DNA of 64,000 bases from Ruminococcaceae bacterium R-25. Lineage in GTDB: Bacteria; Bacillota; Clostridia; Saccharofermentanales; Saccharofermentanaceae. Under the pieces are notes generated by a model. It was given only the letters and a program-made list of their open reading frames with translations, searched no databases and was not told the origin of the DNA. The first letter of the stretch is position 1; each line of letters begins with the position of its first letter. Location of the stretch: assembly GCA_003149065.1 (NCBI GenBank), contig QGFZ01000001.1, positions 1,426,001 to 1,490,000 on the forward strand. Direction: 5' to 3'. The position numbers and the translations under genes are program-made. Below are positions 23,190 through 38,655 of this stretch, piece after piece.

Positions 23190-24179
23190 TTAGGTTGTTT
23201 CTTCTTTATCTTTCTTTCCTGTTTCCGTAACCACATCATCATCGAAATTGAATCTTTTCTCCTCAACAACAAGCGGACGGTTAATAACACGTGTATTAAT
23301 ATTCAGTATGTATTCGCCGATAATACCTATGAAGAGCAGCTGGATTCCTCCGATAAAGAAAACACCGATAGTAACAGGTGCCATACCGGCATCAAATCCA
23401 TACCAATTAATCAACTTCAATACAAGATATACGATCGCCACAATAAAACTGATTGCAGATATGATCAAACCGATAAAGGTAGCTAGTCTCAATCCGACTT
23501 TTGTATACGAAGTAAAGGACAACATTGCCGCATCGTACAAAGAATAGAAATTGTTATGTGTCTTACCTGCACGGCGTTTCTGCTGCTCGTATTCAATCTC
23601 AATACGGTTAAACCCTTCTCCGTACTCAGCCACAATACCGCGCATAAACGGGATAGGATCATGAAGATTTCTCATAAGATCGATAAAGCTCTTGTCATAC
23701 AATCCGAAACCCGTAAAGTGCTCGATCATCTTTACATTGGACATTTTCTTGATCATCTTGTAATAGATGGAGCGCAGCATATAAATAAATGCGTTTTCTT
23801 TGCTTGAAGACTTTATGGCGCTGACGATCTTATGTCCCTTTTCCCATTCCTCAACAAAGCGCGGGATCAGTTCAATCGGATCCTGGAAATCACAGCATAC
23901 GGATATTGCGCAATCACCTGTACATTGGCACATAGCATGGAACGGGGAATTAAACTGACCGAAGTTAGTTACATTAAAGATCACCTTGACCTTTTTATTA
24001 CCTTCGCAAAGTTTTATCAGCTTGCCGCGTGTCCCGTCATTTGATGCATTATCAGCAAAAATAATCTCGTAATCATACTGGGGAAGGCTGGTGGTAAGCT
24101 CTTTGACAACCGCTTCACAAATCGGCTCCACATTATCTACTTCATTATAGCAAGGAATTATAATACTGATCTTTTTCAC
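23190..24179 (-). CDS. Polyprenyl-phosphate glycosyltransferase (GT2, DPM1/GtrB-like)
   Basis: A 329-residue GT2 enzyme. Its N-terminal catalytic domain has IIPCYNEVDNVE, IIFADNASNDGT and CCDFQDPIELIPRFVEEW, typical of the DPM1/GtrB/ArnC group. Two membrane helices lie at about 230-260 and 270-295. Such enzymes put one sugar on undecaprenyl phosphate, which is then flipped and used outside by a GT-C transferase. The start is GTG with AAGGAGC before it. The large membrane protein at the head of this operon (37024-38655) could be that partner. Confidence 0.88.
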   Translation of the reverse strand: MKKISIIIPCYNEVDNVEPICEAVVKELTTSLPQYDYEIIFADNASNDGTRGKLIKLCEGNKKVKVIFNVTNFGQFNSPFHAMCQCTGDCAISVCCDFQDPIELIPRFVEEWEKGHKIVSAIKSSSKENAFIYMLRSIYYKMIKKMSNVKMIEHFTGFGLYDKSFIDLMRNLHDPIPFMRGIVAEYGEGFNRIEIEYEQQKRRAGKTHNNFYSLYDAAMLSFTSYTKVGLRLATFIGLIISAISFIVAIVYLVLKLINWYGFDAGMAPVTIGVFFIGGIQLLFIGIIGEYILNINTRVINRPLVVEEKRFNFDDDVVTETGKKDKEETT

Positions 24180-24193
24180 CGAATTGCTCCTTA

Positions 24194-25135
24194 TTAATCA
24201 AATGATATTGATTCTATAATATCACGAATAGAATCTTTGAACGGTATCTCCCGATACTCAATTCCGTATTTTCCGATCCCGTTCAAGCTCGGAACAGAAG
24301 GAAAACCCTCGTTGTCTCCGAAAGACAGCTGAGAAGTGCTTGAACAGACATCATACATATCCATCACATATTCCTTCAGTGGACGCGATATGCTGTTTGC
24401 AATATTTATGATCTCTCCGGATTCTTCCGGATTCACATCCTCTCTGATCTTCTTATAGACAAGGATGACCAGCTCCGCTATATCTCTGACATCAAGATAA
24501 TTCCACATCTGGGTGCATGCGCCAAACTGCATCGGCTCATTTTTAAGGAATTTCTTGCAGGCAGTCATGATCAATGACCAGGGATGGTCTCCGGGACCCA
24601 TCGCACTGAACACCCTGAAATGAACATATCTCATGCCGTTCTCTTTGCAATACTCTTTCGCGAATTCGTAGAACTCCTTTTTCTTCGCGCCATAAGCACT
24701 AAGAGAAGAATCCGGCATTGTCTCTTCAATGATCCCGGCATCTCCCGGATATTCGGCGCGGCTTCCTAGATCTGCGAAAATGGAACACTTAAGGTCTGCT
24801 GCACATTTAAGGCACTGCTTCGAGAAAACGACATTCTCATCCTGTATATCGTAATCGTTAACCCCGTCCCTGTTTACTCCGCCCCACGCAAGATTGAACC
24901 ATGCATCATAAACCGGCTTTTCAAACTTATCTGCTGAAACATCCTTAAGATCAGAGATCACGAAAGAAAGATTGGAAATCTCCGTGCCGTTCTTCTCAAG
25001 GAAGTCGACCAGTTCCGTTTTCTTTCCTTCTGACCTTATTACGGCGCATAAGGAATAACCCTTTGATAAAAAGGCCGATATCAGGTGTTTACCTATAAAT
25101 CCGGATGCTCCGGTAATTACAATAGAACTGTTCAT
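24194..25135 (-). CDS. NAD-dependent epimerase/reductase (extended SDR) A
   Basis: A 313-residue SDR. The nucleotide site is TGASGFIGKH near the N terminus, and the catalytic Y-x3-K is in SAYGAKKKE. Segments FNLAWGGVNRDG and LGSRAEYPGD resemble 4-ketoreductases of branched-sugar pathways. It is clearly paralogous to the SDR at 26280-27209, which has DLAWEGSDQG and GSQAEYG at the same places. The pair brackets the C-methyltransferase gene, so I infer that both act on the C-methylated CDP-keto sugar, one perhaps as epimerase and one as reductase. The ATG at 25135 is preferred over an in-frame TTG two codons earlier. Confidence 0.82.
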   Translation of the reverse strand: MNSSIVITGASGFIGKHLISAFLSKGYSLCAVIRSEGKKTELVDFLEKNGTEISNLSFVISDLKDVSADKFEKPVYDAWFNLAWGGVNRDGVNDYDIQDENVVFSKQCLKCAADLKCSIFADLGSRAEYPGDAGIIEETMPDSSLSAYGAKKKEFYEFAKEYCKENGMRYVHFRVFSAMGPGDHPWSLIMTACKKFLKNEPMQFGACTQMWNYLDVRDIAELVILVYKKIREDVNPEESGEIINIANSISRPLKEYVMDMYDVCSSTSQLSFGDNEGFPSVPSLNGIGKYGIEYREIPFKDSIRDIIESISFD

Positions 25136-25146
25136 TCTCAAAGACC

Positions 25147-26271
25147 TTATAAAACTAAAACCTCATCATCCTTAACTGCCAGAATATATTTCATATCAGG
25201 AACATTATCGCGTATTTGCTTTGCGATTTCTTTTGAAAATGCAGGTGCCATGATAATGATCAGGTCAGGCTTATCCGCATATGCCCTTTTAGGATCGACA
25301 ATTGCCAGGTGAGATACGGTAGAATATGCATTCCACTTAAGAGGAGAAGAATCCACGATATACTGCGGTTCAAACTGCAGTTCCAGCGTTGCCATCATAG
25401 TCAGACCCTGATGGCTGGCTCCCCAAACAGCAATTTTCTCAATATCCTTATGTGACTCAACAAAAGAATTGAGTTTTTGTTCGATCTTTATTCTCTGGCC
25501 TTCAAAATCCGGAAGCACAACAGGAGTTCTCTTCCTGACAATAATCTGTGTTGTATCACCGTTGAATCTGCTGACCTCGCAGACATCAAAACCGTTCAGC
25601 AAAAACAGATTTTGCAGAGCACGCTCGGTATAGTATGCGATATGATCTCTCATAAACTCATAGTAACTGGCCTTTTCGATGAAATATTCAAAGCTGGGAA
25701 CAGTAAGAAGTCCGATTCCGCCTTCCTTCAGGTTATTGTAGATTCCCTCAACCATCGATACAGGATCTGGCTGGTGCTCAAGATAATTAAATGACACGAA
25801 TGCATCAAAAGGTCCGTTTGGATCTATATAATCACGGTCAACAAAACCTTTATTGACAGTTAAACCGTTCTTCTCTGCTTTTTGAATAAGATCGTCATTG
25901 TGTTCAACACCGGAAGCAGAAACACCCAGGCCATCCAACAGAGCAAGGAACTCTCCTCCTCCGCAGCCGACTTCCCATACTTTCTTGCCGGAGAGATCAT
26001 ATTTTTCGATCAGGTCCTTATATTGTTTGATACGCAATTTCTTTAATGTCTGAGACAGACCGACTGCACGGATCACATCTTTATAGTAATATACCGGAGA
26101 GCAGTCAAACTGAATCAATCCGCAATATTCACACTCATAGAGATTAAGCAACATTCCCTTATCATCATCAAGTTCATGTTCTGCAGGAAGAAACTGAACC
26201 CTTGAAGGCATATTATCCATTTGGAATATTTTTTTCTTAAGCAACCGTTTGCAGATAATACATTCACTCAT
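25147..26271 (-). CDS. NDP-sugar C-methyltransferase
   Basis: A 374-residue SAM-dependent methyltransferase of the TylC3-like type. It has an N-terminal zinc site (Cys4, Cys7, Cys47, Cys50), a SAM-binding motif WEVGCGGGEF at 99-108, and a C-terminal domain with IAVWGASHQG and ILAVKDDEV that closes over the sugar. These enzymes add a methyl group to carbon 3 of an NDP-4-keto sugar. In this operon the obvious substrate is CDP-4-keto-6-deoxyglucose from RfbG. GAGG before the ATG supports the start. It lies between two paralogous SDR genes with gaps of 8 and 11 bases. Confidence 0.88.
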   Translation of the reverse strand: MSECIICKRLLKKKIFQMDNMPSRVQFLPAEHELDDDKGMLLNLYECEYCGLIQFDCSPVYYYKDVIRAVGLSQTLKKLRIKQYKDLIEKYDLSGKKVWEVGCGGGEFLALLDGLGVSASGVEHNDDLIQKAEKNGLTVNKGFVDRDYIDPNGPFDAFVSFNYLEHQPDPVSMVEGIYNNLKEGGIGLLTVPSFEYFIEKASYYEFMRDHIAYYTERALQNLFLLNGFDVCEVSRFNGDTTQIIVRKRTPVVLPDFEGQRIKIEQKLNSFVESHKDIEKIAVWGASHQGLTMMATLELQFEPQYIVDSSPLKWNAYSTVSHLAIVDPKRAYADKPDLIIIMAPAFSKEIAKQIRDNVPDMKYILAVKDDEVLVL

Positions 26272-26279
26272 ACACTACC

Positions 26280-27209
26280 TCACTGAATCTCTGACTTCAT
26301 CCATTCAACCATTCTCTTGATTCCAACTTCAAAAGGAACGGAAGTCATAAATCCCGTTTCCCTCTTCAATTTCGAAATATCACCTGTTAATTCCATTATC
26401 TGGTTTTCCTGATAAGGAATCTCACCAAATCTCAATTCGACTTCAGGATTTGCCACGTCACGAATAATGGTCGTATATTCTTTGATGCTCTTTCCTTCAC
26501 CTCCGGAGATACAGTACACACCTTCTGCTGATTTGTTTACCGCCAGAAGATACAAGGCTAAAGCAGCATCATCCGCATACATAAAATCCCATATCTGCTC
26601 ACCTTTTGTCATCTTGGGCGAGTTACCCTTCATGATCTCTGAGATCGAATATGTGATCAACGAATCCATTCCCATACCAGGACCATATACACTGAATATC
26701 CTAGGCCAGACATAACGGATGCCTTTGGCTTTGCATATCTCACAGCTAAGATCCTCAACCTGCAGCTTAGCCTTGCCATACTCAGTTACAGGATTTAGAG
26801 GATGCTCTTCGTTGATCTTACCGCTGACACGGCCATATTCAGCCTGGGAACCTGCGCCTATGAATGATTTACAACCGTTTCTTTCTGCGAATCCTATTAT
26901 CGACGGTATGTATTCAATGTTCTTTTTCTGGATATCAGGATTTTGCCTTGAACCCTGATCAGATCCTTCCCATGCAAGATCGAAAATGACATCGTACTGA
27001 ACAGAACCATCCGTTACCACACTATCAAAACCGGAAATATCACACTCTAATATCTCAACATTAGGCAGGCCATCTATATATTTTCTCCTGGAAGAATTCT
27101 TCCGGATAACAGCCAGAACAGGAATATTCTTTTCTGACAACAGCTTGGACAAAGCAATACCTATTGCTCCTGTAGCTCCTGTTATTATGGCTCCTTGCAG
27201 TTCTTTCAC
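26280..27209 (-). CDS. NAD-dependent epimerase/reductase (extended SDR) B
   Basis: A 309-residue SDR with TGATGAIGIALSKLL at the nucleotide site and catalytic YGKAK (TEYGKAKLQ). FDLAWEG and GAGSQAEYG link it to the SDR encoded just beyond the methyltransferase. I place the start at GTG 27209, because AGAGG stands eight bases before it. An ATG at 27245, four bases after the flippase stop, would add 12 residues but has no ribosome site. The function is inferred to be reduction or epimerisation of the methylated keto sugar. Confidence 0.8.
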   Translation of the reverse strand: MKELQGAIITGATGAIGIALSKLLSEKNIPVLAVIRKNSSRRKYIDGLPNVEILECDISGFDSVVTDGSVQYDVIFDLAWEGSDQGSRQNPDIQKKNIEYIPSIIGFAERNGCKSFIGAGSQAEYGRVSGKINEEHPLNPVTEYGKAKLQVEDLSCEICKAKGIRYVWPRIFSVYGPGMGMDSLITYSISEIMKGNSPKMTKGEQIWDFMYADDAALALYLLAVNKSAEGVYCISGGEGKSIKEYTTIIRDVANPEVELRFGEIPYQENQIMELTGDISKLKRETGFMTSVPFEVGIKRMVEWMKSEIQ

Positions 27210-27248
27210 TCTATGTTCCTCTTTTTTCTTATCATAAGAATACATTTC

Positions 27249-28515: not shown

Positions 28516-29568
28516 TCAACTATTAGGACGGATCTTAAGAATCCGGCGCCAATACATATCATAAGCCATCTTATAAACTAATTTGAAAAGCGGTGAAGGA
28601 AGGATTTTATGCAACGTCTTTTCCTTTTTATGAAAACTTGTTGCATGGGATTTCATTTTTCCACTTTTACTCCAAGGGGAGATTGCTTTGTATTTATCCC
28701 ATAAACTGAAAATACTATAGTGATCACCTTCCTCCCATGGACGGCCAACCACTGTTCCACCCTCGAAATGATATACAGTTGCTTCTTTTTCAGCCGCTGC
28801 AAGCTCATCAACAGAATAGAAGTTATATAAATCATCCAGATCATAGAGCTTGTACATAGTTTTCAAATCAAATGACAGACAATCTTTCATAGCTGAAAAG
28901 ATAGTAAAGAAATTATAATTGATCGGGAGTTTCTTTATCTCCTTTTGCAAAGCTATACTAATTGCATCCTGGTCAGCATATAAGATTTTTTCATAATTCT
29001 CACTCAAAAAATCTTCAATCTGTTTTTGGCACTTATTTTCTGTCCATTTATGGATGTCATATAAAACAATTCCGGAATTGTAATACGTGTCTTTATCACT
29101 CATTCCTATTTTTTTCATGTAAGAATAAGGCATAAAATCTTGTATCATTCCTAATGTATAACCTTCAAGATCTAAAGAGTACAAGGGACTGATATCTTTA
29201 TTGATTATTGTATCAGCATCAACTGCCAGCAACCTGTTGATTGGTTCTTTAATCTGGTCTAAAGCATAAATCTTGTAAAACACAGCGTAAGATCCACGCC
29301 ATTTTTTTACGCCTTTTTTTTCGAGTAAGTCATCTATAACTTTACTGCTCAGAAAGTAGATCTCTCGTCCATATAGCGTGCCAAGTTTTAATATAGTCTG
29401 TTTGCTTTCATCGCTGATTCCGCCATCAACTATATAAACTCGAATCACACCTATATGCTTATTGTTCTCGAACAACGAAGTAAGAGATACACCCATTACC
29501 GGTGCATAGGCGTCACTGCTTTGATATAAGATATTAACCTCATCAAACCCTGTAGATCTATCACTCAT
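28516..29568 (-). CDS. GT8-family glycosyltransferase
   Basis: A 350-residue retaining glycosyltransferase of family GT8 (LgtC/GspA-like). The N terminus NILYQSSDAYAPVMGVSLTSLF and the DxD motif in LLAVDADT (Asp117 and Asp119) are diagnostic. AVFYKIYALDQI and the later YHFEGG contribute the sugar and metal sites. These enzymes usually add an alpha-linked galactose or glucose. Translation is coupled to the upstream rfbE gene by an ATGA overlap. Confidence 0.9.
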   Translation of the reverse strand: MSDRSTGFDEVNILYQSSDAYAPVMGVSLTSLFENNKHIGVIRVYIVDGGISDESKQTILKLGTLYGREIYFLSSKVIDDLLEKKGVKKWRGSYAVFYKIYALDQIKEPINRLLAVDADTIINKDISPLYSLDLEGYTLGMIQDFMPYSYMKKIGMSDKDTYYNSGIVLYDIHKWTENKCQKQIEDFLSENYEKILYADQDAISIALQKEIKKLPINYNFFTIFSAMKDCLSFDLKTMYKLYDLDDLYNFYSVDELAAAEKEATVYHFEGGTVVGRPWEEGDHYSIFSLWDKYKAISPWSKSGKMKSHATSFHKKEKTLHKILPSPLFKLVYKMAYDMYWRRILKIRPNS

Positions 29569-30584
29569 ATCTTTTTAACCCATTCAATCATTTTCGATAC
29601 ACCCTCAAGGGATGACACTTCAGGCTTCCATCCAATTAATCTGTTGATCTTTGAAATATCTGCGACAAATACTTTTTGATCACTTTGTCTTGGAGGTATT
29701 TGAACATAATCCATCTTTATACCCAATAATTCTTCCAACATTGCAAACAGTTCAAGGAGTGAAAGAGCATTAGACATGGTGCCGCCAATATTAAAAGCCT
29801 GTCCATAAATGTCATCTATGTGCTCATATGCTGTGAAGTACAACTTCACCATATCTTCAGCCTCAAGCAAATCTCTTACTTGCTTTCCGTTTCCGGAAAT
29901 CGTAAACGGATCGCATTGAGGGTTCTGATACTTTTCGATTGCTTTAGCAACAAACCAGCCAACCCAGCCCTGATCATATGTCGCAAATTGTCTGCTTCCA
30001 TACATTGATGAATGCCTGAAGACAACGGATTTAACACCAAATATTCTTGAATAATCAAGCATGTATTGATCTGCACAACCTTTGGAACATCCATAAGGTG
30101 ATCTGAAATCCAACGGAACCGATTCGTCAAATCCATTAGGAAATTCATCGCACATATATCTTGTGCTGGTTTCCGTATAAGTATACTGTTCCAAATCTCC
30201 ATAAACTTTATTTGTAGACGAGAAGAAAATTGCCGTTTGCGGGCTATACTTTCTTATAGCCTCCAATACATTCAACGCTCCGATTGCATTTGTCTGAAAA
30301 TCTCGATACGGATCTGAAATTGACTTTGTCATAGTGACCTGTCCGGCAAGGTGAAAAATAACATCAAATTGGCCTTCACGAATCACTTGTTCCACATCAT
30401 TCTTTACCCTTGTATCACCATGAATGAATGTGTAATTACCTAACGAATTAAGCCATTCACGATTCTTGTCAGAACCCAGTCGCGACATATTGTCAAACAC
30501 CGTGAGGTCATATTCCTTTTCAATTGCATAAGATGCCAGATTACTTCCTAGAAAGCCACAACCACCATTAATAAGAATCTTCAT
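29565..30584 (-). CDS. rfbE: CDP-paratose 2-epimerase (tyvelose epimerase)
   Basis: A 339-residue extended SDR strikingly like RfbE: NGGCGFLGSNLASYA at the N terminus, FHLAGQVTMTKSI, SSTNKVYGDLEQY (122-134), catalytic Tyr164 and Lys168 in SPYGCSKGCADQYM, and FATYDQGWVGWF with TISGNGKQVRD. RfbE inverts C2 of CDP-paratose to give CDP-tyvelose. GGAGGAG six bases before the ATG gives a strong start, overlapping the upstream reductase by four bases. It is best known from Gram-negative O-antigen loci, so its presence here is notable. The true substrate may be a branched derivative, given the carboligase nearby. Confidence 0.92.
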   Translation of the reverse strand: MKILINGGCGFLGSNLASYAIEKEYDLTVFDNMSRLGSDKNREWLNSLGNYTFIHGDTRVKNDVEQVIREGQFDVIFHLAGQVTMTKSISDPYRDFQTNAIGALNVLEAIRKYSPQTAIFFSSTNKVYGDLEQYTYTETSTRYMCDEFPNGFDESVPLDFRSPYGCSKGCADQYMLDYSRIFGVKSVVFRHSSMYGSRQFATYDQGWVGWFVAKAIEKYQNPQCDPFTISGNGKQVRDLLEAEDMVKLYFTAYEHIDDIYGQAFNIGGTMSNALSLLELFAMLEELLGIKMDYVQIPPRQSDQKVFVADISKINRLIGWKPEVSSLEGVSKMIEWVKKI

Positions 30585-31447
30585 AAATTCTCCTCCATTC
30601 TATTTATCATATTGCTTATACCGTTTTTCCAATAAACCGGATTCCAATCCATTATTTCTTTTAGTCTGCTTGTATCAGCAACGCAATCCGGCTCAAAATC
30701 TCTCATAGGGACAGCGCCTTTATTCACAATAGACTTTTTGCCTGTTTCCTCCCAAATATAGTCAACTAATTCAGAAATTGACGGAGCTATGCCTGTACCA
30801 ACTGGAATTTCAATATAACCATGAATATCTGAATGGAAAATTCCCATCAATGCACTAATGATATCTTCTACAGCAACAATATCTCTACGCTGAGTTCCTA
30901 CGGTAACATTGACTTCTTCTCCGTTAATCATCTTCATAATCAATTGAGGAATAAAACGGTCTTTCGGTTCATCAGCACCGTAGAACATTTGCAGTTTCAA
31001 ATCAACAAAATCTATATGGTGGTGTGATGCATAATAATTTCCAAATTCGCTAAACATCTTTTTGGAAAAGCTATACATGTTCATATCATCAGGCAACCCT
31101 GTACCAATCGTGTAAAAATGCTTGCATCCTTTTTCAACAACACAATTCAAGACCTGAAGAGGAAAATCGATATTCGCTTCAATAACATTATTATACAGAG
31201 TGCTTTTCTTTCCATAACTGCAAGCCATATTAAATACTGCATCAAACGAAGTATAAATTGAAGCAGTTTTAACAGCGTCGAGGCTTGCCGGAATGATAGA
31301 TAATCCTTGATCTGCATACTTCTTAATTCTTGATAAATCAGATGTAGATCTAACAGTGCATGTAATACTGTGCTTTCCTTCTGAAAGAAGGTTTTCAATT
31401 ACCTTGCTTCCTAAATAACCGTTTCCTCCAAGCACCAGAATATTCAT
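30581..31447 (-). CDS. CDP-paratose/abequose synthase-like reductase
   Basis: A 288-residue SDR. It has LVLGGNGYLGSKV at the NAD(P) site, catalytic YSFSK (MNMYSFSKKMFSEFG), and segments FVDLKLQMFYGADEPKDRFIP and QRRDIVAVEDII that match the RfbJ/RfbS family (ketoreductases acting on CDP-4-keto-3,6-dideoxyglucose). With RfbE next door, paratose synthase activity (RfbS) is the simplest reading. Alternatively it could reduce a product of the TPP carboligase, as in yersiniose formation. The ATG at 31447 has GAGAGG at good distance; a GTG three codons upstream overlaps that site. Confidence 0.82.
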   Translation of the reverse strand: MNILVLGGNGYLGSKVIENLLSEGKHSITCTVRSTSDLSRIKKYADQGLSIIPASLDAVKTASIYTSFDAVFNMACSYGKKSTLYNNVIEANIDFPLQVLNCVVEKGCKHFYTIGTGLPDDMNMYSFSKKMFSEFGNYYASHHHIDFVDLKLQMFYGADEPKDRFIPQLIMKMINGEEVNVTVGTQRRDIVAVEDIISALMGIFHSDIHGYIEIPVGTGIAPSISELVDYIWEETGKKSIVNKGAVPMRDFEPDCVADTSRLKEIMDWNPVYWKNGISNMINRMEENL

Positions 31448-31448
31448 C

Positions 31449-33230
31449 TTAATCACCTCTCAAAACATTCTCAAGCTCTTCCCGATCAAGAAGAGGCGCC
31501 ATATCTTCCAACGGGCGGCTTGCCATCTGGCCATCCGGTCTTACATAGTTGACTTGCTTAGGAAGGATCTTCTGTGTAATGTCAGCTTTTACCGTGCACA
31601 ATACAGGTCCGTCATATTCAAGAACAGAAGAAACTTTCTCTTTCAATTCAGATGTCGTTTCAATATGCTCTGAATGAACACCGAATGCTTCGGCTACCTT
31701 TGTCATATCAGGAAGCGTAAGACCGTTTTCTTCAGTACAACCGGTAAGATGTCCTTTGAAGTTTCCGTTCTGAGACTGGTAGATCATGCTGTAACCGCTG
31801 TTATCGACAACGAAGATCTTAACAGGTAGAGATAAGCGCTTTATAACTTCCAATTCCTGCATATTCATAGCAACACTGCCGTCACCGGTAATGCAGACTG
31901 TGCGTTTTCCACCGGAAGCAACACAACTCCCGATTGAAGCAGGCACATCATAACCCATAGCAGCTAAACCTTTGGTAAGAAAAGCTCTCTGACCCCACTT
32001 TATCTTAAAGACCTTCATGGTGATATCTACCGAAGTTCCTGAACTTGTGAACTGATAGATGTCTTCCGGCTTCATCTGAGATGAAACCTCCCCTGCAAGA
32101 TCATATGTGCTAACATAACCTTCACGCGGTTCCTGTTCAGGGATCAGTACCGGATACTTCTCTCTTAACTGATTGCAGTGAGTGATCCATTTTTCGCGTG
32201 ATACAGGCTTGATCTCATCTATACGTGCTAACAGTTTCTCGATAAACGATTTCGCATCACATACGACTTTGATCTTCGGATGAACGCTTTTCTTATTCAT
32301 CTCGTTTTCATCGATATCGACCATGATATGCACGCCGTTTTCGAGGAAACTGTCGAAGTTATATCCTGTGCTCAAAAGATTCAATCTGGTGCCAATTGTC
32401 AGCACCATATCTGCGCCCTGCTGGATAAGATTGGCGGCACGCTGGCCTACTGCACCGGGACGTCCGAAATACATAGGATGATCATCTTCAATAAGATCAA
32501 CGCCGTTCCATGAAGTTAAAGTCGGGAATCCGAGTTTGTTATAGAGTTCTCTTGCCTGGTCCACAGCGTGTCCCAAACGTATGCCATGGCCTAAAACAAG
32601 CACAGGTTTTTCCGACTTATTAATTGCATCAATAACTTTAGTGATATCCTCATCTTTTGCTTCGTAATCAGGAAGATCAGAAGCATCAAAGGAAGCAAGC
32701 GATTCAGGCTCCACATTAGATGCCTGTATATCAAGCGGTACATCGATCCAAACAGGTCCCGGTCTTCCGTTTACTGCAAGTGCAGCAGCCTTCTCAAGTT
32801 CATAACGGATATCTTCAGGCTCCTTGATCTGAACGGCATATTTGGCATACGAGTGAACCAGAGAGATAATATCAACCTCCTGAATACCGAATTGACGGAT
32901 CTTCTGGTCACCAACCAGATCAGCTCGTTTTGCCTGGCCGGAAATATAGAAGACCGGAATCGAATCGATATATGCACCAACTAAGCCCGTGATGGCATTT
33001 GTCGCACCTGGGCCGCTGGTTACAAGACAAGCTCCATAACCTTCATGAACACGCGCATAGCTTTCAGCAGCAATGGATGCACCCTGCTCATGAAGCATGA
33101 ATACGCCTTTGACCTTGTCACTCGAACCGAGTGAGTTGTTCATGTGCATAGCGCCGCCGCCGGTTACACAGAAGATATTCTTAACTCCAAGCGAAGCGAT
33201 AAATTCAATAATATAATCAGAAACTTTCAT
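31449..33230 (-). CDS. TPP-dependent carboligase (acetolactate synthase/YerE-like)
   Basis: A 593-residue thiamine diphosphate enzyme of the acetolactate synthase fold. Glu48 in MLHEQGAS is the catalytic Glu of the Pyr domain. The TPP/Mg motif is GDG at 449-451 running to Asn477. An FAD-binding middle domain occupies 190-340. The context argues against branched-chain amino acid synthesis: it lies between a DRE-TIM aldolase and CDP-sugar reductases, with no ilvN or ilvC. YerE, of the same fold, adds a two-carbon unit from pyruvate to CDP-4-keto-3,6-dideoxyglucose on the way to yersiniose. A similar carboligation is my inference. Its ATG overlaps the aldolase stop by one base (TAATG). Confidence 0.82.
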   Translation of the reverse strand: MKVSDYIIEFIASLGVKNIFCVTGGGAMHMNNSLGSSDKVKGVFMLHEQGASIAAESYARVHEGYGACLVTSGPGATNAITGLVGAYIDSIPVFYISGQAKRADLVGDQKIRQFGIQEVDIISLVHSYAKYAVQIKEPEDIRYELEKAAALAVNGRPGPVWIDVPLDIQASNVEPESLASFDASDLPDYEAKDEDITKVIDAINKSEKPVLVLGHGIRLGHAVDQARELYNKLGFPTLTSWNGVDLIEDDHPMYFGRPGAVGQRAANLIQQGADMVLTIGTRLNLLSTGYNFDSFLENGVHIMVDIDENEMNKKSVHPKIKVVCDAKSFIEKLLARIDEIKPVSREKWITHCNQLREKYPVLIPEQEPREGYVSTYDLAGEVSSQMKPEDIYQFTSSGTSVDITMKVFKIKWGQRAFLTKGLAAMGYDVPASIGSCVASGGKRTVCITGDGSVAMNMQELEVIKRLSLPVKIFVVDNSGYSMIYQSQNGNFKGHLTGCTEENGLTLPDMTKVAEAFGVHSEHIETTSELKEKVSSVLEYDGPVLCTVKADITQKILPKQVNYVRPDGQMASRPLEDMAPLLDREELENVLRGD

Positions 33231-34846
33231 TATTCGTATACGCTTTCTGTCAGGAATGTGATCTTCATATCCTGAGCATTTTTCTTTATATCGCGGAACA
33301 TGTCTTTGATCTCATCATTCAGTTCACTCCATGCCTTGCCGGGATTGACTGTCGGGAGCGAAGCATCAGCATAACTCTCGTTATAGGTTTCCTTAAAGCC
33401 GTCAAAACCGGAGATATATACGTCTTTTGCATCCAACTGTTTGAGGAGTCTCAGGCAGCAGATGACAGCATTGTCGAAATGATCCCAGCCTCTCTTGATG
33501 GCACGCTCAAATTCAACGATGTATTCATCAGCATCACCTTCATTTTTAATGCTGGACAGCAAAATCTTTTTCACGGCATTAAACTGTTCTGTGCGTGTTT
33601 CTTTCGCATACTCATAGCGGGCATTATTCGTAAGGAACAGATAATCGTATCCGTTGCCGTAATCTTCCAAGAGAGCATTTACGGCAATAACGACTGCATC
33701 GCTTCTGTTCTGAGAGATAAACTCATCAATACCCATCTTCTTGGTAATAGAGGACTTACCCGGCGCTACAAGAACGATCTTCTTTCCTGCTATAGCCTTC
33801 TTCAGTGTCTCTACAGCAGCTGTATCGTCGATCTTCCGGTTCTGGTTCTCAATGAACTTCGCCTCGAGAAGATCGTAATCGTATTTCTTTCTGTCTTCAG
33901 GAGAAAGCGATTCAATGATGTTTCTCATATCCTTTGCGGATGTTCTGTGGTTCTTAGTAAGATATGCAATGTTGTTTACATGGCAACAGTACATACCGGC
34001 AATACAATACTCTGTAGAATAACCCCAAGTGTACTTCTCTTCGAAATACTTCATATAAATGTCGATGGCATCCATTATCGCATTCATATTGTAACCGGTC
34101 TCATATTTCCTGTTCAGATAATTAACCATCAGTTCGGTTGTAGCATTACCAGCACCTCTGCCCATACCACAGAGTGATGAATCAACAACGACTGTACGCT
34201 CCGTTTTATCAAGAAGCTTGATAAAGTGGATCGCATTCGAGAAAGCGAGCTGCTGGTTATTATGCGAATGGAATCCAAGCGCTACACCGGGATCTAATTC
34301 CGCATTCAGGACATTGACGATCCTGTCGAGATCTTCTTCATACATTGCACCGAAAGTATCAACAACAGATAAACTCTTAGCACCAGAAGCGTTAACTTCT
34401 TTCGCAAGCTCTACAAGATCTTCATTAGAATAAGCAAGTGTGTTGGCAGCCTGGAAGAAAAGTGTATAGCCTTTTTCCAAAACCTGCTTACCGACTTTTA
34501 TTCCTTCTCTGAATTTGTTGTATGGAAATACTACTCTTATCGCATCTATCGAATTACCGTCGCACACAGGAAGATTTGAAAGTTCATATCTGTCCCAGTC
34601 GATCATTGCGACATACATGAAATTAGGCTTTCTTTCAGTAATGTACGGAACTACATCTGACGGGACATGGTAGAAAGATGTGCCCTTCACATGTTCTTTG
34701 TCTTTGAGCCAGCCGCATTCGATAATATCAATATCAGCATCCTGAAGCTTGCGGATAATTCCTTTTATTGCAGGCTCACCAAATTCTGCGTTTACGATAT
34801 ATGCACCATCTCGAAGTGTACAATCCAGCAACTTTATTCTTGACAT
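33230..34846 (-). CDS. DRE-TIM (HMGL-like) aldolase fused to an unidentified Rossmann-like domain
   Basis: A 538-residue protein. Residues 1-300 are a DRE-TIM barrel: DCTLRDGAY (8-16) with the metal-binding Asp and Arg, the GFHSHNN metal ligands His193 and His195, and DSSLCGMGRGAGN. This superfamily includes 4-hydroxy-2-oxovalerate aldolase, isopropylmalate synthase and HMG-CoA lyase. Residues about 345-538 form a second domain (VLVAPGKSS, AVVIAVNALLEDYG, YDYLFLTNNARY, VYISGFDGF) that looks Rossmann-like and recalls DUF115-type domains; I cannot assign it. Sitting before the TPP carboligase and coupled to it, it may supply or cleave the 2-oxo acid used to branch the CDP-sugar. GAGG precedes the ATG. 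Confidence 0.8.
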   Translation of the reverse strand: MSRIKLLDCTLRDGAYIVNAEFGEPAIKGIIRKLQDADIDIIECGWLKDKEHVKGTSFYHVPSDVVPYITERKPNFMYVAMIDWDRYELSNLPVCDGNSIDAIRVVFPYNKFREGIKVGKQVLEKGYTLFFQAANTLAYSNEDLVELAKEVNASGAKSLSVVDTFGAMYEEDLDRIVNVLNAELDPGVALGFHSHNNQQLAFSNAIHFIKLLDKTERTVVVDSSLCGMGRGAGNATTELMVNYLNRKYETGYNMNAIMDAIDIYMKYFEEKYTWGYSTEYCIAGMYCCHVNNIAYLTKNHRTSAKDMRNIIESLSPEDRKKYDYDLLEAKFIENQNRKIDDTAAVETLKKAIAGKKIVLVAPGKSSITKKMGIDEFISQNRSDAVVIAVNALLEDYGNGYDYLFLTNNARYEYAKETRTEQFNAVKKILLSSIKNEGDADEYIVEFERAIKRGWDHFDNAVICCLRLLKQLDAKDVYISGFDGFKETYNESYADASLPTVNPGKAWSELNDEIKDMFRDIKKNAQDMKITFLTESVYE

Positions 34847-34859
34847 ATTTGGTTCCTCA

Positions 34860-36203
34860 TCATTTGCAAATGCTTACAGCTTCCTTTATCGTTTCTGCCA
34901 TATAATCGATCATCTCATCTGTCATTCCGGGATATACTCCTACCCAGAACGAATTCTCCATGATGTAATCCGTGTTCTTAAGTTCACCGACAATTCGGTA
35001 ACCCTTCTTCTCAGCACGCATCTGATCAAAGCAGGGGTGCTTTGTAAGGTTTCCTGCAAAGAGCATTCTTGTCTGAACACCCTTAGATTCAATGAACGGA
35101 ACAATATTCTTACGGTCGATGCCTTCCTTGCATGTAATGAGGAAACCGAACCAGCTCGGATCTGAGTTCTCACATGCTTCAGGAAGAATGATTCCTTCCG
35201 TTCCCTTGAGACCTTCATATAATCTCTTGAAGTTCTGCTTTCTTCTCTCGACAAATGAAGGGAACTTCTTTATTTGGGCACACCCTATAGCAGCCTGCAT
35301 ATCAGTTGCTTTGAGGTTATATCCGAAATGAGAATAGACATATTTGTGATCGTAGCCTACAGGAAGCTCGCCAAACTGTCCGTCAAAACGGTGTCCGCAG
35401 AGATTATCTCTTCCTGAAGGACATGAACAGTCTCTTCCCCAGTCTCTGAAGGATCTAACAATCTTGTTGAGCAACGGATTGTCGGTATATACCGCACCTC
35501 CTTCACCCATCGTCATGTGATGCGGAGGATAGAACGAAGACGTTCCAATATCACCAACAGTACCGGTCAGATACTTCTTGCCGTCAAGAACATATTCGCT
35601 TCCTAATGCATCACAGTTGTCTTCGACAAGCCAGAGATTATGCTTATCACAGAAAGCCTTAACTGCTTTCAGATCAAAAGGATTGCCCAACGTATGAGCG
35701 ATCATTATTGCCTTTGTCTTATCGGAAAGTGCATCGTCGAGCTTAGTGACATCTATGTTGTACTGAGGGATAGTAACATCTACAAATACCGGAACTGCAC
35801 CATACTGGATGACAGGAGCAACAGTCGTAGGGAAACCTGCTGCGACCGTGATAATCTCATCACCGGGAAGAATCTGTCTCTCCTTAAGCAAGGGTGATGT
35901 CAATGCCATGAAAGCATTGAGATTTGCAGAAGAGCCGGAATTAACAAGACTTACAAAACGCACGCCGAGATACTTTGCAAATTCCTTCTCAAACTGTTCG
36001 GTATACCTGCCGCTCGTAAGCCAGAACTCCAATGCAGAATCGACAAGATTCGTCATCTCCTCGCTGTCGTAAACGCGTGATGCATAGTTAATGCGGTCAC
36101 CGGGAGTGAATTCTTTTTTCGGTTCCTTGAAGTCATGATAGTACTGCTCTACAAGGCCCAATATCTCTTCTCTTGCTTCTGCTTCATTATTCCAGTTGCT
36201 CAT
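34860..36203 (-). CDS. rfbH: CDP-4-keto-6-deoxyglucose 3-dehydrase (E1)
   Basis: A 447-residue member of the DegT/aminotransferase fold in which the usual PLP-binding Lys is replaced by His: His228 in SFYPPHHMTMGEGG, the hallmark of RfbH/E1. Fe-S ligand candidates are Cys197 (EDNCDALGS) and Cys259, Cys261 and Cys269 (RDCSC, then DNLCG). With PMP and a [2Fe-2S] cluster it removes the 3-hydroxyl from CDP-4-keto-6-deoxyglucose, together with reductase E3. No E3 (RfbI-type ferredoxin reductase) gene is in the window. The ATG at 36203 follows GGAAGG. It lies between rfbF and the aldolase gene. Confidence 0.94.
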   Translation of the reverse strand: MSNWNNEAEAREEILGLVEQYYHDFKEPKKEFTPGDRINYASRVYDSEEMTNLVDSALEFWLTSGRYTEQFEKEFAKYLGVRFVSLVNSGSSANLNAFMALTSPLLKERQILPGDEIITVAAGFPTTVAPVIQYGAVPVFVDVTIPQYNIDVTKLDDALSDKTKAIMIAHTLGNPFDLKAVKAFCDKHNLWLVEDNCDALGSEYVLDGKKYLTGTVGDIGTSSFYPPHHMTMGEGGAVYTDNPLLNKIVRSFRDWGRDCSCPSGRDNLCGHRFDGQFGELPVGYDHKYVYSHFGYNLKATDMQAAIGCAQIKKFPSFVERRKQNFKRLYEGLKGTEGIILPEACENSDPSWFGFLITCKEGIDRKNIVPFIESKGVQTRMLFAGNLTKHPCFDQMRAEKKGYRIVGELKNTDYIMENSFWVGVYPGMTDEMIDYMAETIKEAVSICK

Positions 36204-36235
36204 TTTAATACCTTCCAAATATATTCTCTATGTAT

Positions 36236-37018
36236 TTAGTCATCCCAACATTTCCACTGGGCTTTATTGGTATCCCAAAGTTTCTCGAGAATATCCTTCT
36301 CTCTTGCATTATCCATGCACTGCCAGAAACCTCTGTGTGTATAGGACATCAGCTCTCCCTGAGATGCAAGCGCTTCCAGAGGCTCTTTCTCGAATACTGT
36401 GTCATCACCTTCAATGTAATTGAAGATCTCCGGCTGGAGCACCATATATCCGGCATTGATCATGGCACCGTCGGATAAGCTCTTCTCACGGAAGGAACGT
36501 ACGGAATTGTTCTCCGCAATATCGAGGATGCCTTTTTGCTGCTCAATGACAACGGATGTAAGAGTAGCGATCTTTCCATGTGACTTATGGAATTCAACGA
36601 GTTTGTTGATGTCAACGTCGCAGACACCGTCACCGTATGTCAGCATGAACGGCTCATCTCCAATATATTTTTCGATCCTCTTAACACGGCCGCCAGTCAT
36701 CGTGCTGTAACCGGTATCACAGACGGTAACTTTCCACGGTTCGATCGACGTCTCATGAACGATCATATTATTGTTGCCTTCGGAATAATCGAAAGTAACG
36801 TCGCTGCAGCGCAGGAAGTAGTCTGCAAACCACTGCTTGATCATGTGCTGCTTGTAACCGGCACAGATAACGAATTCGTTGAATCCGTAATGTGAGTATT
36901 CCTTCATGATGTGCCATATGATAGGCTTTCCGCCGATCTCGATCATCGGCTTGGGACGGAACTGGCTTTCTTCGGTTATACGTGTTCCATAACCACCTGC
37001 AAGGATTACAACTTTCAT
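36236..37018 (-). CDS. rfbF: Glucose-1-phosphate cytidylyltransferase
   Basis: A 260-residue nucleotidyltransferase. The signature LAGGYGTRITEES with RPKPMIEIGGKPIIWHIMK at the N terminus, TYGDGVCDVDI in the middle, and FWQCMDNAREKDILEKLW at the end are nearly those of RfbF. It makes CDP-glucose from CTP and glucose-1-phosphate, the entry step of the CDP-sugar pathway run by rfbG and rfbH. It lies six bases after the membrane-protein gene and 33 bases before rfbH. Confidence 0.96.
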   Translation of the reverse strand: MKVVILAGGYGTRITEESQFRPKPMIEIGGKPIIWHIMKEYSHYGFNEFVICAGYKQHMIKQWFADYFLRCSDVTFDYSEGNNNMIVHETSIEPWKVTVCDTGYSTMTGGRVKRIEKYIGDEPFMLTYGDGVCDVDINKLVEFHKSHGKIATLTSVVIEQQKGILDIAENNSVRSFREKSLSDGAMINAGYMVLQPEIFNYIEGDDTVFEKEPLEALASQGELMSYTHRGFWQCMDNAREKDILEKLWDTNKAQWKCWDD

Positions 37019-37023
37019 AATAC

Positions 37024-38655
37024 TTATTTCACCCCGATTCTTGAAAAATATTTAAAGAACAAATTAGTGTCATAATCAAAAGCTACAAAAGCATCCGGAT
37101 TCCATTCTCTGCCAAACGGATCTTCAGTTCTGTTAAGTGTAACTATATAATCTGTGCGAACATCGTCTATGCCTCTGTTTTTAACCTGTATGCTGCCTCT
37201 TGCTAATTCCACGCAAGGAGTTACTGCCCCGATGATCAAACAAAAAACCAGAACCGCATAGAAAACATTCAGCCTTGAAGAATTTCCAAAAAGCTTACTT
37301 TTCTCTTTTTCACTTTTTGAGTCAGCCGGACGAATGAGCTTCTCATCAAATAAATACTTGTAGACCATGATAAACATCATAAAAAGAGGAGGAATAGAAG
37401 CTCTCATCGTTAAATCTGAATTTATTCCTAAATTAAAAAGAGGATAAATACAAAGTTGAACAACCGTAACGTAAAACAAGACATTCTTTTTGTTCGCTAG
37501 AGCAATCAGCATAGCATATATGCCAAATTCTATCAGCAAAAAGAATATGTACCAGACGAAGTCCGATATTCCCCATATAGAAGCGAGGAAAAAAACAGAA
37601 TCGGTATCAGCGCCTGTGTTGTCTGCCATATAATTATTCGCCAGCAAAAATGCGCTAATAAACGGAAAGATCAAAAAAGCAGCGGAAATATTCGATATTG
37701 AAATAACTTCTTTGATAAACGTTTTGCCTTTCTTCTCTTTTACCATCGATATACAACGCGTAACTCCAACAGCCATACAAAGAATGAAGAAACCAATAAA
37801 CGGGAAGGGACCGTTAAATAAACATGCCATTCCAATAAATACCAGATTAGACACAGTTTTCTCATGTAATAACAAGGTCGTGCAAATCCATGGAACTAAA
37901 GTCTGATTAAAAACCCAGCACATACAGGTTGTTAATGAGGAATACTGAAAAGTTCCGGCCCACCACTCTATATGAAGGCCTTCATTTATTTTAAGACCTG
38001 AACCGATAATATCCATTCCGGAAAACAGGATCAGGCCAAAAACCAACATAAACACGTGCTTGGCATCGGTCTTCTGCAAATAAACGAGGAGCAATAAAAA
38101 GAGAATGGTAAAACCAATAGTAAAATACAGCAAAAGTGACATATTTCCGACAAAGAAAGCGACTTTATAGTCTCCCCCGATTAAATAAACAATTTTCCCG
38201 GGAATAGCTGCCGGCAACCACATTCCGATATAATAGCAAAGCGCACCCTGACATTTGTCATAAAAAACCGGCCAATCTCTCATAATAAGATCCCTGAATA
38301 TGGCATTTCTCCAGGTATAGTCAAGGCTCTGTCCCCAAAGTCTCCCTATTCCACAAAAAATACAATAAGCACAAGAGATCAAAGCTATTGCCGGTATTAC
38401 CCACTTTGACAAAGATATCGTTTTTTCATTGATTGGGGCTTTTGTGTCCGTATTGTACTTTGTTTTAGAAAACAGCTTTTTCAAGAGGTTTTTGTCCTCA
38501 GCAGCCACTAAACAAACAAACAAAGCTATACAAGACAGGATTATCCAGTACCATTTTAGCCAACCGATGAAAAAACAAAGCAACGGCAAAGATATATAAA
38601 TAAGGGCAAAACGTCGTATTGTCGAATAAGATATCTGGATCTTTCCTGTATTCAT
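37024..38655 (-). CDS. Polytopic membrane protein, possible GT-C glycosyltransferase or polymerase
   Basis: A 543-residue protein with about 11-13 hydrophobic helices. After the second helix there is an outer loop rich in acidic and aromatic residues (LDYTWRNAIFRDLIMRDW, then PVFYDKCQGALCYYIGMW), as expected near the active site of a GT-C enzyme. Another distinctive segment is HIEWWAGTFQYSSLT with VFNQTLVPW. The C-terminal 60 residues are outside the membrane. I do not recognise a named family. As first gene of the operon, next to CDP-sugar genes and with a GtrB-like GT2 and a flippase downstream, it is likely either the repeat-unit polymerase (Wzy-type) or the GT-C that uses the polyprenyl-linked sugar. 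GGAAGG and AAGG lie before the ATG. Confidence 0.7.
   Translation of the reverse strand: MNTGKIQISYSTIRRFALIYISLPLLCFFIGWLKWYWIILSCIALFVCLVAAEDKNLLKKLFSKTKYNTDTKAPINEKTISLSKWVIPAIALISCAYCIFCGIGRLWGQSLDYTWRNAIFRDLIMRDWPVFYDKCQGALCYYIGMWLPAAIPGKIVYLIGGDYKVAFFVGNMSLLLYFTIGFTILFLLLLVYLQKTDAKHVFMLVFGLILFSGMDIIGSGLKINEGLHIEWWAGTFQYSSLTTCMCWVFNQTLVPWICTTLLLHEKTVSNLVFIGMACLFNGPFPFIGFFILCMAVGVTRCISMVKEKKGKTFIKEVISISNISAAFLIFPFISAFLLANNYMADNTGADTDSVFFLASIWGISDFVWYIFFLLIEFGIYAMLIALANKKNVLFYVTVVQLCIYPLFNLGINSDLTMRASIPPLFMMFIMVYKYLFDEKLIRPADSKSEKEKSKLFGNSSRLNVFYAVLVFCLIIGAVTPCVELARGSIQVKNRGIDDVRTDYIVTLNRTEDPFGREWNPDAFVAFDYDTNLFFKYFSRIGVK

Follow-up and report, generated by a model that had tools for sequence, protein, structure and literature searches.

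A two-domain DRE-TIM aldolase and a YerE-like ThDP-dependent enzyme, encoded by overlapping genes within a CDP-sugar operon, probably work together at the heart of a pathway to a long-branched sugar of the erwiniose/caryophyllose kind, the first making the donor and the second using it. In the proposed pathway, RfbF, RfbG, and RfbH would supply a CDP-4-keto-3,6-dideoxyhexose, and the aldolase would join pyruvate to a small aldehyde (probably a phosphorylated one in relatives with a phosphatase gene) to give a 4-hydroxy-2-oxo acid. The YerE-like enzyme would decarboxylate this acid and add the hydroxyacyl anion so formed to the sugar at its C4 ketone, yielding a tertiary alcohol whose branch exceeds two carbons. 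The branch ketone may then be reduced by a short-chain reductase, for which the protein at 26280-27245 is a candidate, after which a glycosyltransferase would use the product. The donor role of the aldolase is proposed from its gene neighborhood together with gene-swap evidence, and its likely substrate, product, and direction are modeled on published ErwE chemistry and the structure of caryophyllose.

A candidate sugar-branching operon

The window (the whole 64-kb stretch of DNA analyzed) carries an operon of 13 ORFs on the same strand, running from RfbF (36236) through RfbG (22048) with intergenic gaps of -47 to +29 bases. The features discussed here are as follows.

22048-23160, minus strand: RfbG, CDP-glucose 4,6-dehydratase (TIGR02622, 417.9 bits vs cut-off 278.45)
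23190-24179, minus strand: family 2 glycosyltransferase (PF00535)
24194-25141, minus strand: SDR-family ORF of the operon (Pfam families)
25147-26271, minus strand: methyltransferase with a C-methyltransferase C-terminal domain, operon member (PF13489, PF08484)
26280-27245, minus strand: SDR-family protein (Epimerase family), candidate for the YerF role, putatively branch ketone reduction
29565-30584, minus strand: SDR-family (dehydratase/epimerase-like) ORF of the operon (Pfam families)
30581-31456, minus strand: SDR-family ORF overlapping the 3' end of the ThDP gene (Pfam families; junction read)
31449-33230, minus strand: predicted YerE-like ThDP-dependent decarboxylase/carboligase, 593 aa (TPP_enzyme_N/M/C; start inside the aldolase stop)
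33230-34846, minus strand: two-domain DRE-TIM (HMGL-type) aldolase, proposed donor (hydroxylated 2-oxo acid) synthase, 538 aa (PF00682, 73.6 bits)
33233-33823, minus strand: C-terminal domain of the aldolase, residues 342-538, modeled with a sialyltransferase (GT42/GT29)/Maf/MptE-HPPK/SteA-type fold (AlphaFold2)
34860-36218, minus strand: RfbH (NF011936 "RfbH," 718.4 bits vs cut-off 423)
36236-37018, minus strand: RfbF, glucose-1-phosphate cytidylyltransferase (TIGR02623, 376.1 bits vs cut-off 300.25)

RfbF, RfbH, and RfbG all passed NCBIfam equivalog cut-offs, and RfbH is presumably the CDP-4-keto-6-deoxyglucose 3-dehydrase. The ThDP gene shares its operon with these CDP-3,6-dideoxyhexose genes, as expected of a YerE-like lyase. 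The aldolase and ThDP ORFs overlap by one base at TAATG, with TAA and ATG sharing that base; the junction reads GAATAATGAAAG. A first-pass annotation had described a translationally coupled pair inside a CDP-sugar operon, a description borne out by the ORFs, the junction, the Pfam families, and the RfbF/H/G equivalog scores. No phosphatase gene adjoins the pair in the operon. The window has a single HADc6 homologue (13494-14135), which was rejected as part of the module: its neighbors encode ABC transporter, NUDIX, and radical-SAM proteins, and an opposite-strand ORF (18283-19047) separates it from the operon.

Identity of the ThDP enzyme

Judged by sequence, the ThDP enzyme resembles YerE-like enzymes more closely than it does acetolactate synthase. 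Its closest PDB entry was JanthE (8rph; 409.8 bits, E = 1.8e-121), termed YerE-like in a passage of PMC12188165; acetolactate synthases in the PDB scored lower, at 256.4 bits or less. Family resemblance and a TIGR00118 score of 364.8 bits might suggest a role as acetolactate synthase in branched-chain amino acid synthesis, yet this reading was rejected as extremely improbable: the score falls below the cut-off of 538.35, the ThDP gene is flanked by sugar genes, and the genome's own acetolactate synthase, only 30% identical and ~61 kb away, has its own ALS_ss_C gene alongside, the sole ALS_ss_C match in the genome. Close similarity to a characterized acetolactate synthase with ilvN elsewhere, which the first-pass annotation had named as counting against its proposal, is thus not what we found; JanthE is nearest. 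Aligned residues include a GDG motif (CDG in JanthE itself), which we take to bind ThDP, and the Glu of HEQ, presumably the activating Glu.

The two-domain aldolase

Both by sequence and by fold, the closest solved relative of the aldolase was 3dxi, a "putative aldolase," followed by DmpG-type 4-hydroxy-2-oxovalerate aldolases, with which it shares the DRE-TIM barrel and the LRDG and HxH motifs. Residues R12, D13, H193, and H195 were invariant in 56 aligned rows and align with 1nvm; we take R12/D13 (LRD) and H193/H195 (HxH) to be metal/enolate residues. The aldolase is nevertheless not DmpG proper: it reads LRDGAY where 1nvm reads LRDGSH, placing Tyr16 where DmpG presumably has its catalytic His, and its scores lie under the NCBIfam DmpG-type cut-offs (TIGR03217, 91.5 vs 286 bits; NF006049, 103 vs 229 bits). 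The C-terminal communication domain of the DmpG type, which presumably serves a dehydrogenase partner, was not found either, as HMGL-like was the sole Pfam match at a threshold of E 0.001 and the modeled C-terminal domain has another fold.

No Pfam family was found in the last 197 residues, so the first-pass annotation was fair in calling this domain unassigned; the structure prediction it proposed points to a sialyltransferase/Maf/MptE/SteA-type fold, shared by the model over most of its length. The AlphaFold2 model (pLDDT 94.4, pTM 0.91) gave VIA-align Z scores of 13.3 to Maf (5mu5), 12.1 to CstII (1ro8), 11.6 to HPPK (8sd5), and 11.2 to SteA (9hmz), with 153 to 176 of the 197 residues aligning at Z 11-13 to Maf, CstII/CstI, HPPK, and SteA. 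Rows 1 to 4 and 6 of the Foldseek search were HPPK and SteA, and a profile match to SteA (9hmz) covered 42 positions (E = 0.0035). Pfam searches of 56 C-domain rows gave weak MptE-like matches in two and D-lyxose isomerase in four, the window row giving neither; among viral models, the named Foldseek rows were MptE-like, DUF115, and sialyltransferase proteins, which added no function. Six residues invariant across the 56 rows (P362, G363, N390, S431, G480, and D482) suggest a putative site.

Conservation of the pair and wider aldolase relatives

Within the host's order, 60 of the 69 matches besides the window were fetched, and aldolases were classed as two-domain when the ORF exceeded 450 aa. 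A ThDP gene lay within six ORFs of a two-domain aldolase in 38 of 42 classed loci and of a short aldolase in 0 of 16. Two loci (L054 and L086) were left unclassed, as a longer antisense ORF masks an aldolase that tblastn finds there; such masking also hid a phosphatase gene in L045 and L049, a CTP gene in L073, and the aldolase in L152 and L153. The first-pass annotation had reckoned that a pair mostly occurring without CDP-sugar genes would speak against it; at least two of RfbF/G/H were present in the fetched stretch of 27 of the 38 paired loci. An RfbF/G/H match was absent from the stretch in 9 of the 38, and seven of the eight genomes concerned have RfbH elsewhere. Homologues of the SDR protein at 26280-27245 and of the glycosyltransferase at 23190-24179 (the latter at least 55% identical) each occurred in 28 of the 38. 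One locus (L060) encodes a natural aldolase-phosphatase fusion.

A wider sample of named loci comprised the best 80 of at least 575 aldolase relatives and so favors close relatives of the query; six of the 80, including L152 and L153, came without context. A CMP-sugar synthetase-like gene lay near the aldolase relative in 49 of the 80, 22 of these also having a KdsC-like gene, which fits an aldolase family that makes 3-deoxy-2-oxo acids. ThDP genes were present in 22 of the 80, at least two of RfbF/G/H accompanying 10 of those 22, many on short contigs. These relatives thereby recall Kdo/sialic-acid-type pathways (KdsA/NeuB, KdsC, and CMP-synthetase) in adjoining CTP_transf_3-type and KdsC/HAD-type genes. 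In contrast, tblastn with three references found no CMP-sugar synthetase-like or KdsC-like match in the 64-kb window, where the aldolase product would instead reach the ThDP enzyme. On plasmids, 183 records matched the aldolase, none covering 80% of it, and the annotated ones among the 20 ThDP enzyme matches listed were acetolactate synthases.

A possible donor-synthase slot in YerE-like loci

We lean slightly toward a broader reading in which YerE-like clusters have a plug-in slot filled by at least four, perhaps five, nonhomologous makers of 4-hydroxy-2-oxo acids (HMGL, HpcH/HpaI, DAHP-synthase-like, NeuB-like, and KDPG/KHG). Together, these clusters would specify a large set of C4-branched octoses to decoses, most of them undescribed, in bacteria that include Gram-positive gut species. 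On this view, the two-domain aldolase, sialyltransferase-fold domain included, would be a shared 3-deoxy-2-oxo acid maker whose links to ThDP carboligation and CMP activation are independent of each other. The window's own host is a gut-type bacterium.

Thirty-six YerE-like loci were drawn from phylum and class samples, "near" meaning within three ORFs of the ThDP gene; L191 was retrieved through its aldolase rather than a ThDP gene. A donor-synthase candidate was near in 13 loci: HpcH/HpaI (5), HMGL (4), DAHP-synthase-like (2), and NeuB-like (2), the last two types in L178, L184, L183, and L211. By the tests used, 21 of the 36 had no donor-synthase gene, nor was one found in L206, which had been dropped from the set because an antisense ORF masks its ThDP gene. 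Donor-synthase genes made up 14 of 193 near ORFs vs 2 of 279 far ORFs. The references had been picked from loci L178-L185 after inspection, and six of the counted loci supplied them; we therefore recounted without those six, obtaining 9 of 157 vs 0 of 226 (p 0.0003, a Fisher value that, like the others here, overstates significance because the loci are related). By BLAST, 8 of the 13 donor-synthase loci had an HAD/KdsC-type gene no more than four ORFs away, vs 1 of the 23 others; without the six reference loci the counts were 4 of 8 vs 0 of 22 (p 0.003). Among class-sample loci added once the references had been fixed, this phosphatase link was weak (2 of 6 vs 0 of 17, p 0.06). BLAST scored HAD-SIS fusions (L192) as SIS and missed an HAD gene that, by Pfam, adjoins the ThDP gene of L197, a locus without a donor synthase.

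Apparent gene swaps occur: L182 and L185 match L042 and L056 in gene content except that an HpcH aldolase stands in for the HMGL one. In L214 an aldolase domain without a recognizable C-domain sits beside the ThDP gene, and a KDPG/KHG aldolase lies near the ThDP gene of one locus that lacks CDP-sugar genes. Of the 13 other phylum-sample genomes encoding a YerE-like enzyme, only one (G548) had a two-domain aldolase match near it at E 1e-20; this type of aldolase therefore does not normally accompany the ThDP enzyme. The trees were built with FastTree only, that of the aldolase without an outgroup.

Alternative explanations

The pair might instead carry out plain yersiniose-type synthesis, the ThDP enzyme using pyruvate and the aldolase, merely co-located, making a keto acid for another polysaccharide residue. 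Such an arrangement would suit an aldolase family that is also found next to CMP-sugar synthetase-like genes where no ThDP enzyme is encoded, and L193, L195, and L213, whose clusters lack a donor synthase and resemble RfbG-RfbH-ThDP-SDR. We consider it unlikely: aldolase and ThDP genes lie close together in 38 of 42 loci, other 4-hydroxy-2-oxo acid makers fill the slot in some clusters, and the window gave no CMP-sugar synthetase-like or KdsC-like match.

Two further readings accept the aldolase as part of the pathway. DRE-TIM aldolases are reversible, and DmpG cleaves in catabolism, so the enzyme could supply pyruvate or remove a by-product. DAHP synthases and NeuB, however, run in the synthetic direction, and the occurrence of their relatives near the ThDP gene in four loci makes a cleaving role quite improbable. 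A Claisen-type acyl-CoA condensing enzyme (citramalate- or homocitrate-synthase-like) extending a 2-oxo acid for the ThDP enzyme would belong to the same superfamily, and the aldolase does give weak matches to isopropylmalate and homocitrate synthases; we rate it a shade lower again, the nearest solved sequences and folds being aldolases and HpcH/HpaI aldolases replacing the HMGL one in similar gene sets. We return, then, to the aldolase as donor synthase. Of the roles floated in the first-pass annotation, making a different 2-oxo acid donor is favored over recycling the leaving product, because ErwE is described in PMC12247030 as coupling 4-hydroxy-2-oxo acids and unrelated makers of such acids occupy the slot in some YerE-like clusters.

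Relation to known branched-sugar pathways

YerE itself acts on CDP-4-keto-3,6-dideoxyglucose in yersiniose synthesis in Yersinia, according to passages of a 2025 review (PMC12247030); that pathway shares a YerE-like ThDP enzyme with the one proposed here but uses pyruvate, makes a two-carbon branch, and needs no donor synthase. In the same review, the donors that ErwE (erwiniose, Pectobacterium atrosepticum) joins to CDP-4-keto-3,6-dideoxyglucose are 4-hydroxy-2-oxo acids instead of pyruvate. The enzyme class, acceptor, and donors are those proposed here, a likeness drawn from published chemistry; unlike the window host, the ErwE host is Gram-negative. Donors beyond pyruvate are therefore already known for YerE-like ThDP enzymes, as is the principle of hydroxylated-donor branching. 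MMAR_2332 (caryophyllose, Mycobacterium marinum) is described there as a ThDP enzyme preferring hydroxy-2-oxo acids, its ketone-acceptor activity pending, and is likened to ours by this description. The caryophyllose branch is given in a passage of PMC5706390 as 1,3,4,5-tetrahydroxyhexyl, with no oxygen at carbon 2, which we infer is how a pyruvate aldol would leave it. The passages of these two papers name no donor-making gene for caryophyllose.

Among the matches listed, no literature describing the aldolase/ThDP pair was found, and a prior description in Steitz 2022, Krug 2024, or Lanza 2024 is possible. The proposal offers a candidate gene for hydroxylated-donor supply in long-branch sugar pathways, whose ThDP step has already been studied in vitro. 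Swapped donor genes could allow branch chemistry to be predicted from sequence, and natural aldolase/ThDP pairs could serve as biocatalysts for chiral tertiary alcohols. The two-domain aldolase family, which carried no specific annotation here, is tied to two sugar pathways and occurs in Bacillota and six other phyla (phyla taken from record titles, mostly of MAGs).

The gene pair and its operon

The aldolase and ThDP genes lie in a one-strand run of 13 ORFs, from RfbF (36236-37018) to RfbG (22048-23160), in which adjacent ORFs are spaced by -47 to +29 bases.

33230-34846, minus strand: two-domain DRE-TIM (HMGL-type) aldolase, 538 aa
31449-33230, minus strand: YerE-like ThDP enzyme, 593 aa
27249-28562, minus strand: further operon ORF

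The first-pass annotation had described the pair as overlapping within a CDP-sugar operon, and both points held at the coordinates it gave: at the junction, GAATAATGAAAG, the stop codon of the aldolase gene shares one base with the start codon of the ThDP gene, and RfbF, RfbH, and RfbG of the same run exceed their NCBIfam cut-offs. The run also encodes SDR-family proteins, family 8 and family 2 glycosyltransferases, and a methyltransferase that carries a C-methyltransferase domain. Immediately upstream of RfbF, a 543-aa ORF (37024-38655) looks by eye like a membrane protein; Pfam returned no family for it.

The YerE-like identity of the ThDP enzyme was borne out. All three TPP-enzyme domains are present, as are a GDG motif and the HEQ glutamate, and among solved proteins 8rph scores highest (409.8 bits, E 1.8e-121), ahead of the top acetolactate synthase (256.4 bits). 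PMC12188165 identifies 8rph as JanthE, which is YerE-like and whose own motif reads CDG. Close likeness to acetolactate synthase with ilvN elsewhere, the objection anticipated earlier, was not seen: the acetolactate synthase that this genome encodes at C1:1519794-1521386 shares 30% identity with the window enzyme, and the sole ALS_ss_C match in the genome adjoins that other enzyme.

In the aldolase, Pfam placed an HMGL-like match at residues 134-260. Both sequence comparison and Foldseek on its model (mean pLDDT 91.5) placed it nearest, among solved proteins, to DmpG-type aldolases and to 3dxi, titled "N-terminal domain of a putative aldolase". Arg12, Asp13, His193, and His195 are invariant across 56 rows. 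DmpG proper was considered and rejected: Tyr16 (LRDGAY, versus LRDGSH in 1nvm) stands where DmpG has its catalytic histidine, and scores fall far under the 4-hydroxy-2-oxovalerate aldolase cut-offs. For these reasons the protein is, as judged from its sequence, aldolase-like yet distinct from DmpG itself.

The C-terminal domain had been called unassigned, and Pfam indeed gives no family for residues 342-538; among 56 rows of the domain it returned a weak MptE-like match in 2 and a D-lyxose isomerase match in 4. A profile of these rows matched SteA (9hmz) at E 0.0035 over 42 positions. Structure prediction, which the first-pass annotation had proposed, gave a confident model of the separate domain (pLDDT 94.4, pTM 0.91) nearest to Maf, CstII, HPPK, and SteA folds. 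By VIA-align, the model scored Z 13.3 against Maf glycosyltransferase (172 residues, 3.4 A) and Z 12.1 against cytidine-ligand-bound CstII (1ro8; 168 residues, 3.2 A); HPPK/MptE (11.6), CstI (11.5), SteA (11.2), and mammalian sialyltransferases (7.9-10.0) also matched. Thiamin pyrophosphokinase came next at 6.5, with other folds at 4.5 or below. The invariant residues Pro362, Gly363, Asn390, Ser431, Gly480, and Asp482 (56 rows) suggest a putative binding site.

Conservation of the pair in Saccharofermentanales

An aldolase match was found in 59 of 188 genomes of the order. Sixty stretches were fetched out of 69 matches besides the window, and the 58 aldolase ORFs classed were either two-domain (>450 aa, n = 42) or short (n = 16). 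The proposed neighborhood search favored the pairing: a ThDP gene lay within 6 ORFs of 38/42 two-domain aldolases and 0/16 short ones, and in 27 of those 38 loci the fetched stretch contained two or more of RfbF/G/H. Two of the other 11 had one such gene and nine had none in the fetched stretch; seven of the eight genomes holding these nine carry RfbH elsewhere (71-78% identical).

A recurrent order was RfbF-RfbG-RfbH-aldolase-phosphatase-ThDP-SDR-glycosyltransferase. The phosphatase, an HAD_2 protein, was called in 22/38 loci, and at least two further loci have one that an antisense ORF masked; in one locus (L060:9234-11492) aldolase and HAD phosphatase are naturally fused in a 752-aa ORF. 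By tblastn, no phosphatase was found beside the pair in the window or in the fetched stretches of its nearest relatives, L035 and L036, and the aldehyde used by the window aldolase may therefore be unphosphorylated. Elsewhere in the window, an HAD_2 phosphatase (13494-14135), 36% identical to the sister-module one, sits in ABC/NUDIX/radical-SAM surroundings.

Candidate alternative donor synthases beside YerE-like enzymes

In wider samples (398 phylum and 391 class genomes; threshold E up to 1e-85), the ThDP enzyme occurred, besides the window genome, in 13 and 33 genomes, respectively. Only one of the 13 phylum-sample genomes (G548) had a two-domain aldolase match nearby at E 1e-20, so outside the order the ThDP enzyme does not usually have this aldolase as its partner. 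After removal of genus members already covered, 37 loci were fetched and a ThDP ORF was called in 36, of which 27 had at least one and 19 at least two of RfbF/G/H. A candidate 4-hydroxy-2-oxo acid maker lay within 3 ORFs of the ThDP gene in 13/36 loci: an HMGL aldolase in 4, HpcH/HpaI aldolase in 5, and DAHP-synthase-like and NeuB-like proteins in 2 each (Pfam was run for the makers of L178, L180, L182, L183, and L185 and for L214; others were assigned by BLAST). In 21/36 loci no candidate maker was found by the tests applied. L179 has a NeuB-like gene at five ORFs, and in L203, where CDP-sugar genes were not found, a KDPG/KHG-type aldolase (11081-11698) directly follows the ThDP gene, downstream of a Jag/R3H gene.

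Candidate maker genes made up 14/193 near versus 2/279 far ORFs. Because reference sequences were chosen from L178-L185, counts were repeated without the six source loci (9/157 versus 0/226, p 0.0003) and for the 23 class loci alone (7/120 versus 0/160, p 0.002), Fisher values here and below being overstated by relatedness among loci. An HAD/KdsC-type gene lay within 4 ORFs in 8/13 maker loci versus 1/23 others (without source loci, 4/8 versus 0/22, p 0.003; class loci alone, 2/6 versus 0/17, p 0.06); L197 has an HAD gene by Pfam yet no donor synthase. One apparent exchange involves L182 and L185, which share RfbF, RfbG, RfbH, ThDP, HAD, SDR26-like, and GT23-like genes with L042 and L056 of the order, in somewhat different order and with one extra glycosyltransferase ORF in L185, and have an HpcH aldolase where the latter have HMGL; in the tree, a single starred group (29 rows, 97) contains the ThDP enzymes of all four loci.

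The maker families have as their common product type a 2-oxo acid in which a CH2 adjoins the keto group and a hydroxyl lies farther along. They are alike in little else, which favors a donor role. The first-pass annotation had offered either a different 2-oxo acid donor or recycling of the leaving product; the latter is argued against by the DAHP-synthase-like and NeuB-like stand-ins, since these families run in the synthetic direction, whereas comparison supports the former well, as a predicted role. Overall, a donor-making aldolase serving a donor-using ThDP enzyme seems to us the probable reading from sequence and analogy, although what the phylum sample showed and the looser association with a phosphatase lower our confidence slightly. 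Such a donor would predict the oxygen-free carbon 2 of the caryophyllose branch, a 1,3,4,5-tetrahydroxyhexyl group (PMC5706390). The principle of a non-pyruvate donor is already known for ErwE, which is described as using 4-hydroxy-2-oxo acids (PMC12247030); within the literature searched, the novelty lies in the gene that probably makes the donor, the swaps of this gene, its second context beside CMP-sugar genes, and the odd-domain fold.

Several fusions and neighbors were also observed. Adjoining a ThDP gene and RfbF/G/H, a 1066-aa ORF (L214:5869-9066) begins with an HMGL aldolase region (1-342, by BLAST) and matches a family 2 glycosyltransferase at 722-772. Ribonuclease-family (PF00545) ORFs (L200:8000-9022 and L202:10998-11675) adjoin YerE-like ThDP genes next to RfbF. 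One YerE-like cluster, in which no NeuB match was found, joins KdsC-like HAD and SIS (sugar isomerase) domains in a single ORF (L192:13606-14811).

A second context beside CMP-sugar genes

All four two-domain aldolases of the order without a ThDP neighbor (L058, L063, L073, and L074) adjoin a CTP_transf_3-type gene (identified by tblastn in L073), and three (L063, L073, and L074) have an HAD gene that we name KdsC-like. A GTDB contig scan gave at least 575 aldolase relatives, and the best 80 were kept; by their sequence records these span Bacillota, Spirochaetota, Synergistota, Bacteroidota, Pseudomonadota, Campylobacterota, and Melainabacteria. Among these best 80, a ThDP gene lay within 5 ORFs in 22 (10 with at least two of RfbF/G/H), a CTP_transf_3-type gene was present in 49 (within L095-L174), and a KdsC-like gene in 24, of which 22 had the CTP gene as well. 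The combination of aldolase, CMP-sugar synthetase-like CTP_transf_3, and frequent KdsC-like phosphatase makes a pyruvate-aldolase route to CMP-activated ulosonic acids possible. KdsA and NeuB are PEP-dependent, whereas the candidate route in the four loci of the order and these 49 would be pyruvate-based. On a tree of 120 two-domain aldolases (ThDP context, 59; CTP context, 53; other, 8), at least four changes between ThDP and CTP contexts are needed, and two large ThDP groups each have CTP rows beside them; this tree, which is unrooted and carries no direction, suggests at least two independent wirings of the aldolase to these contexts.
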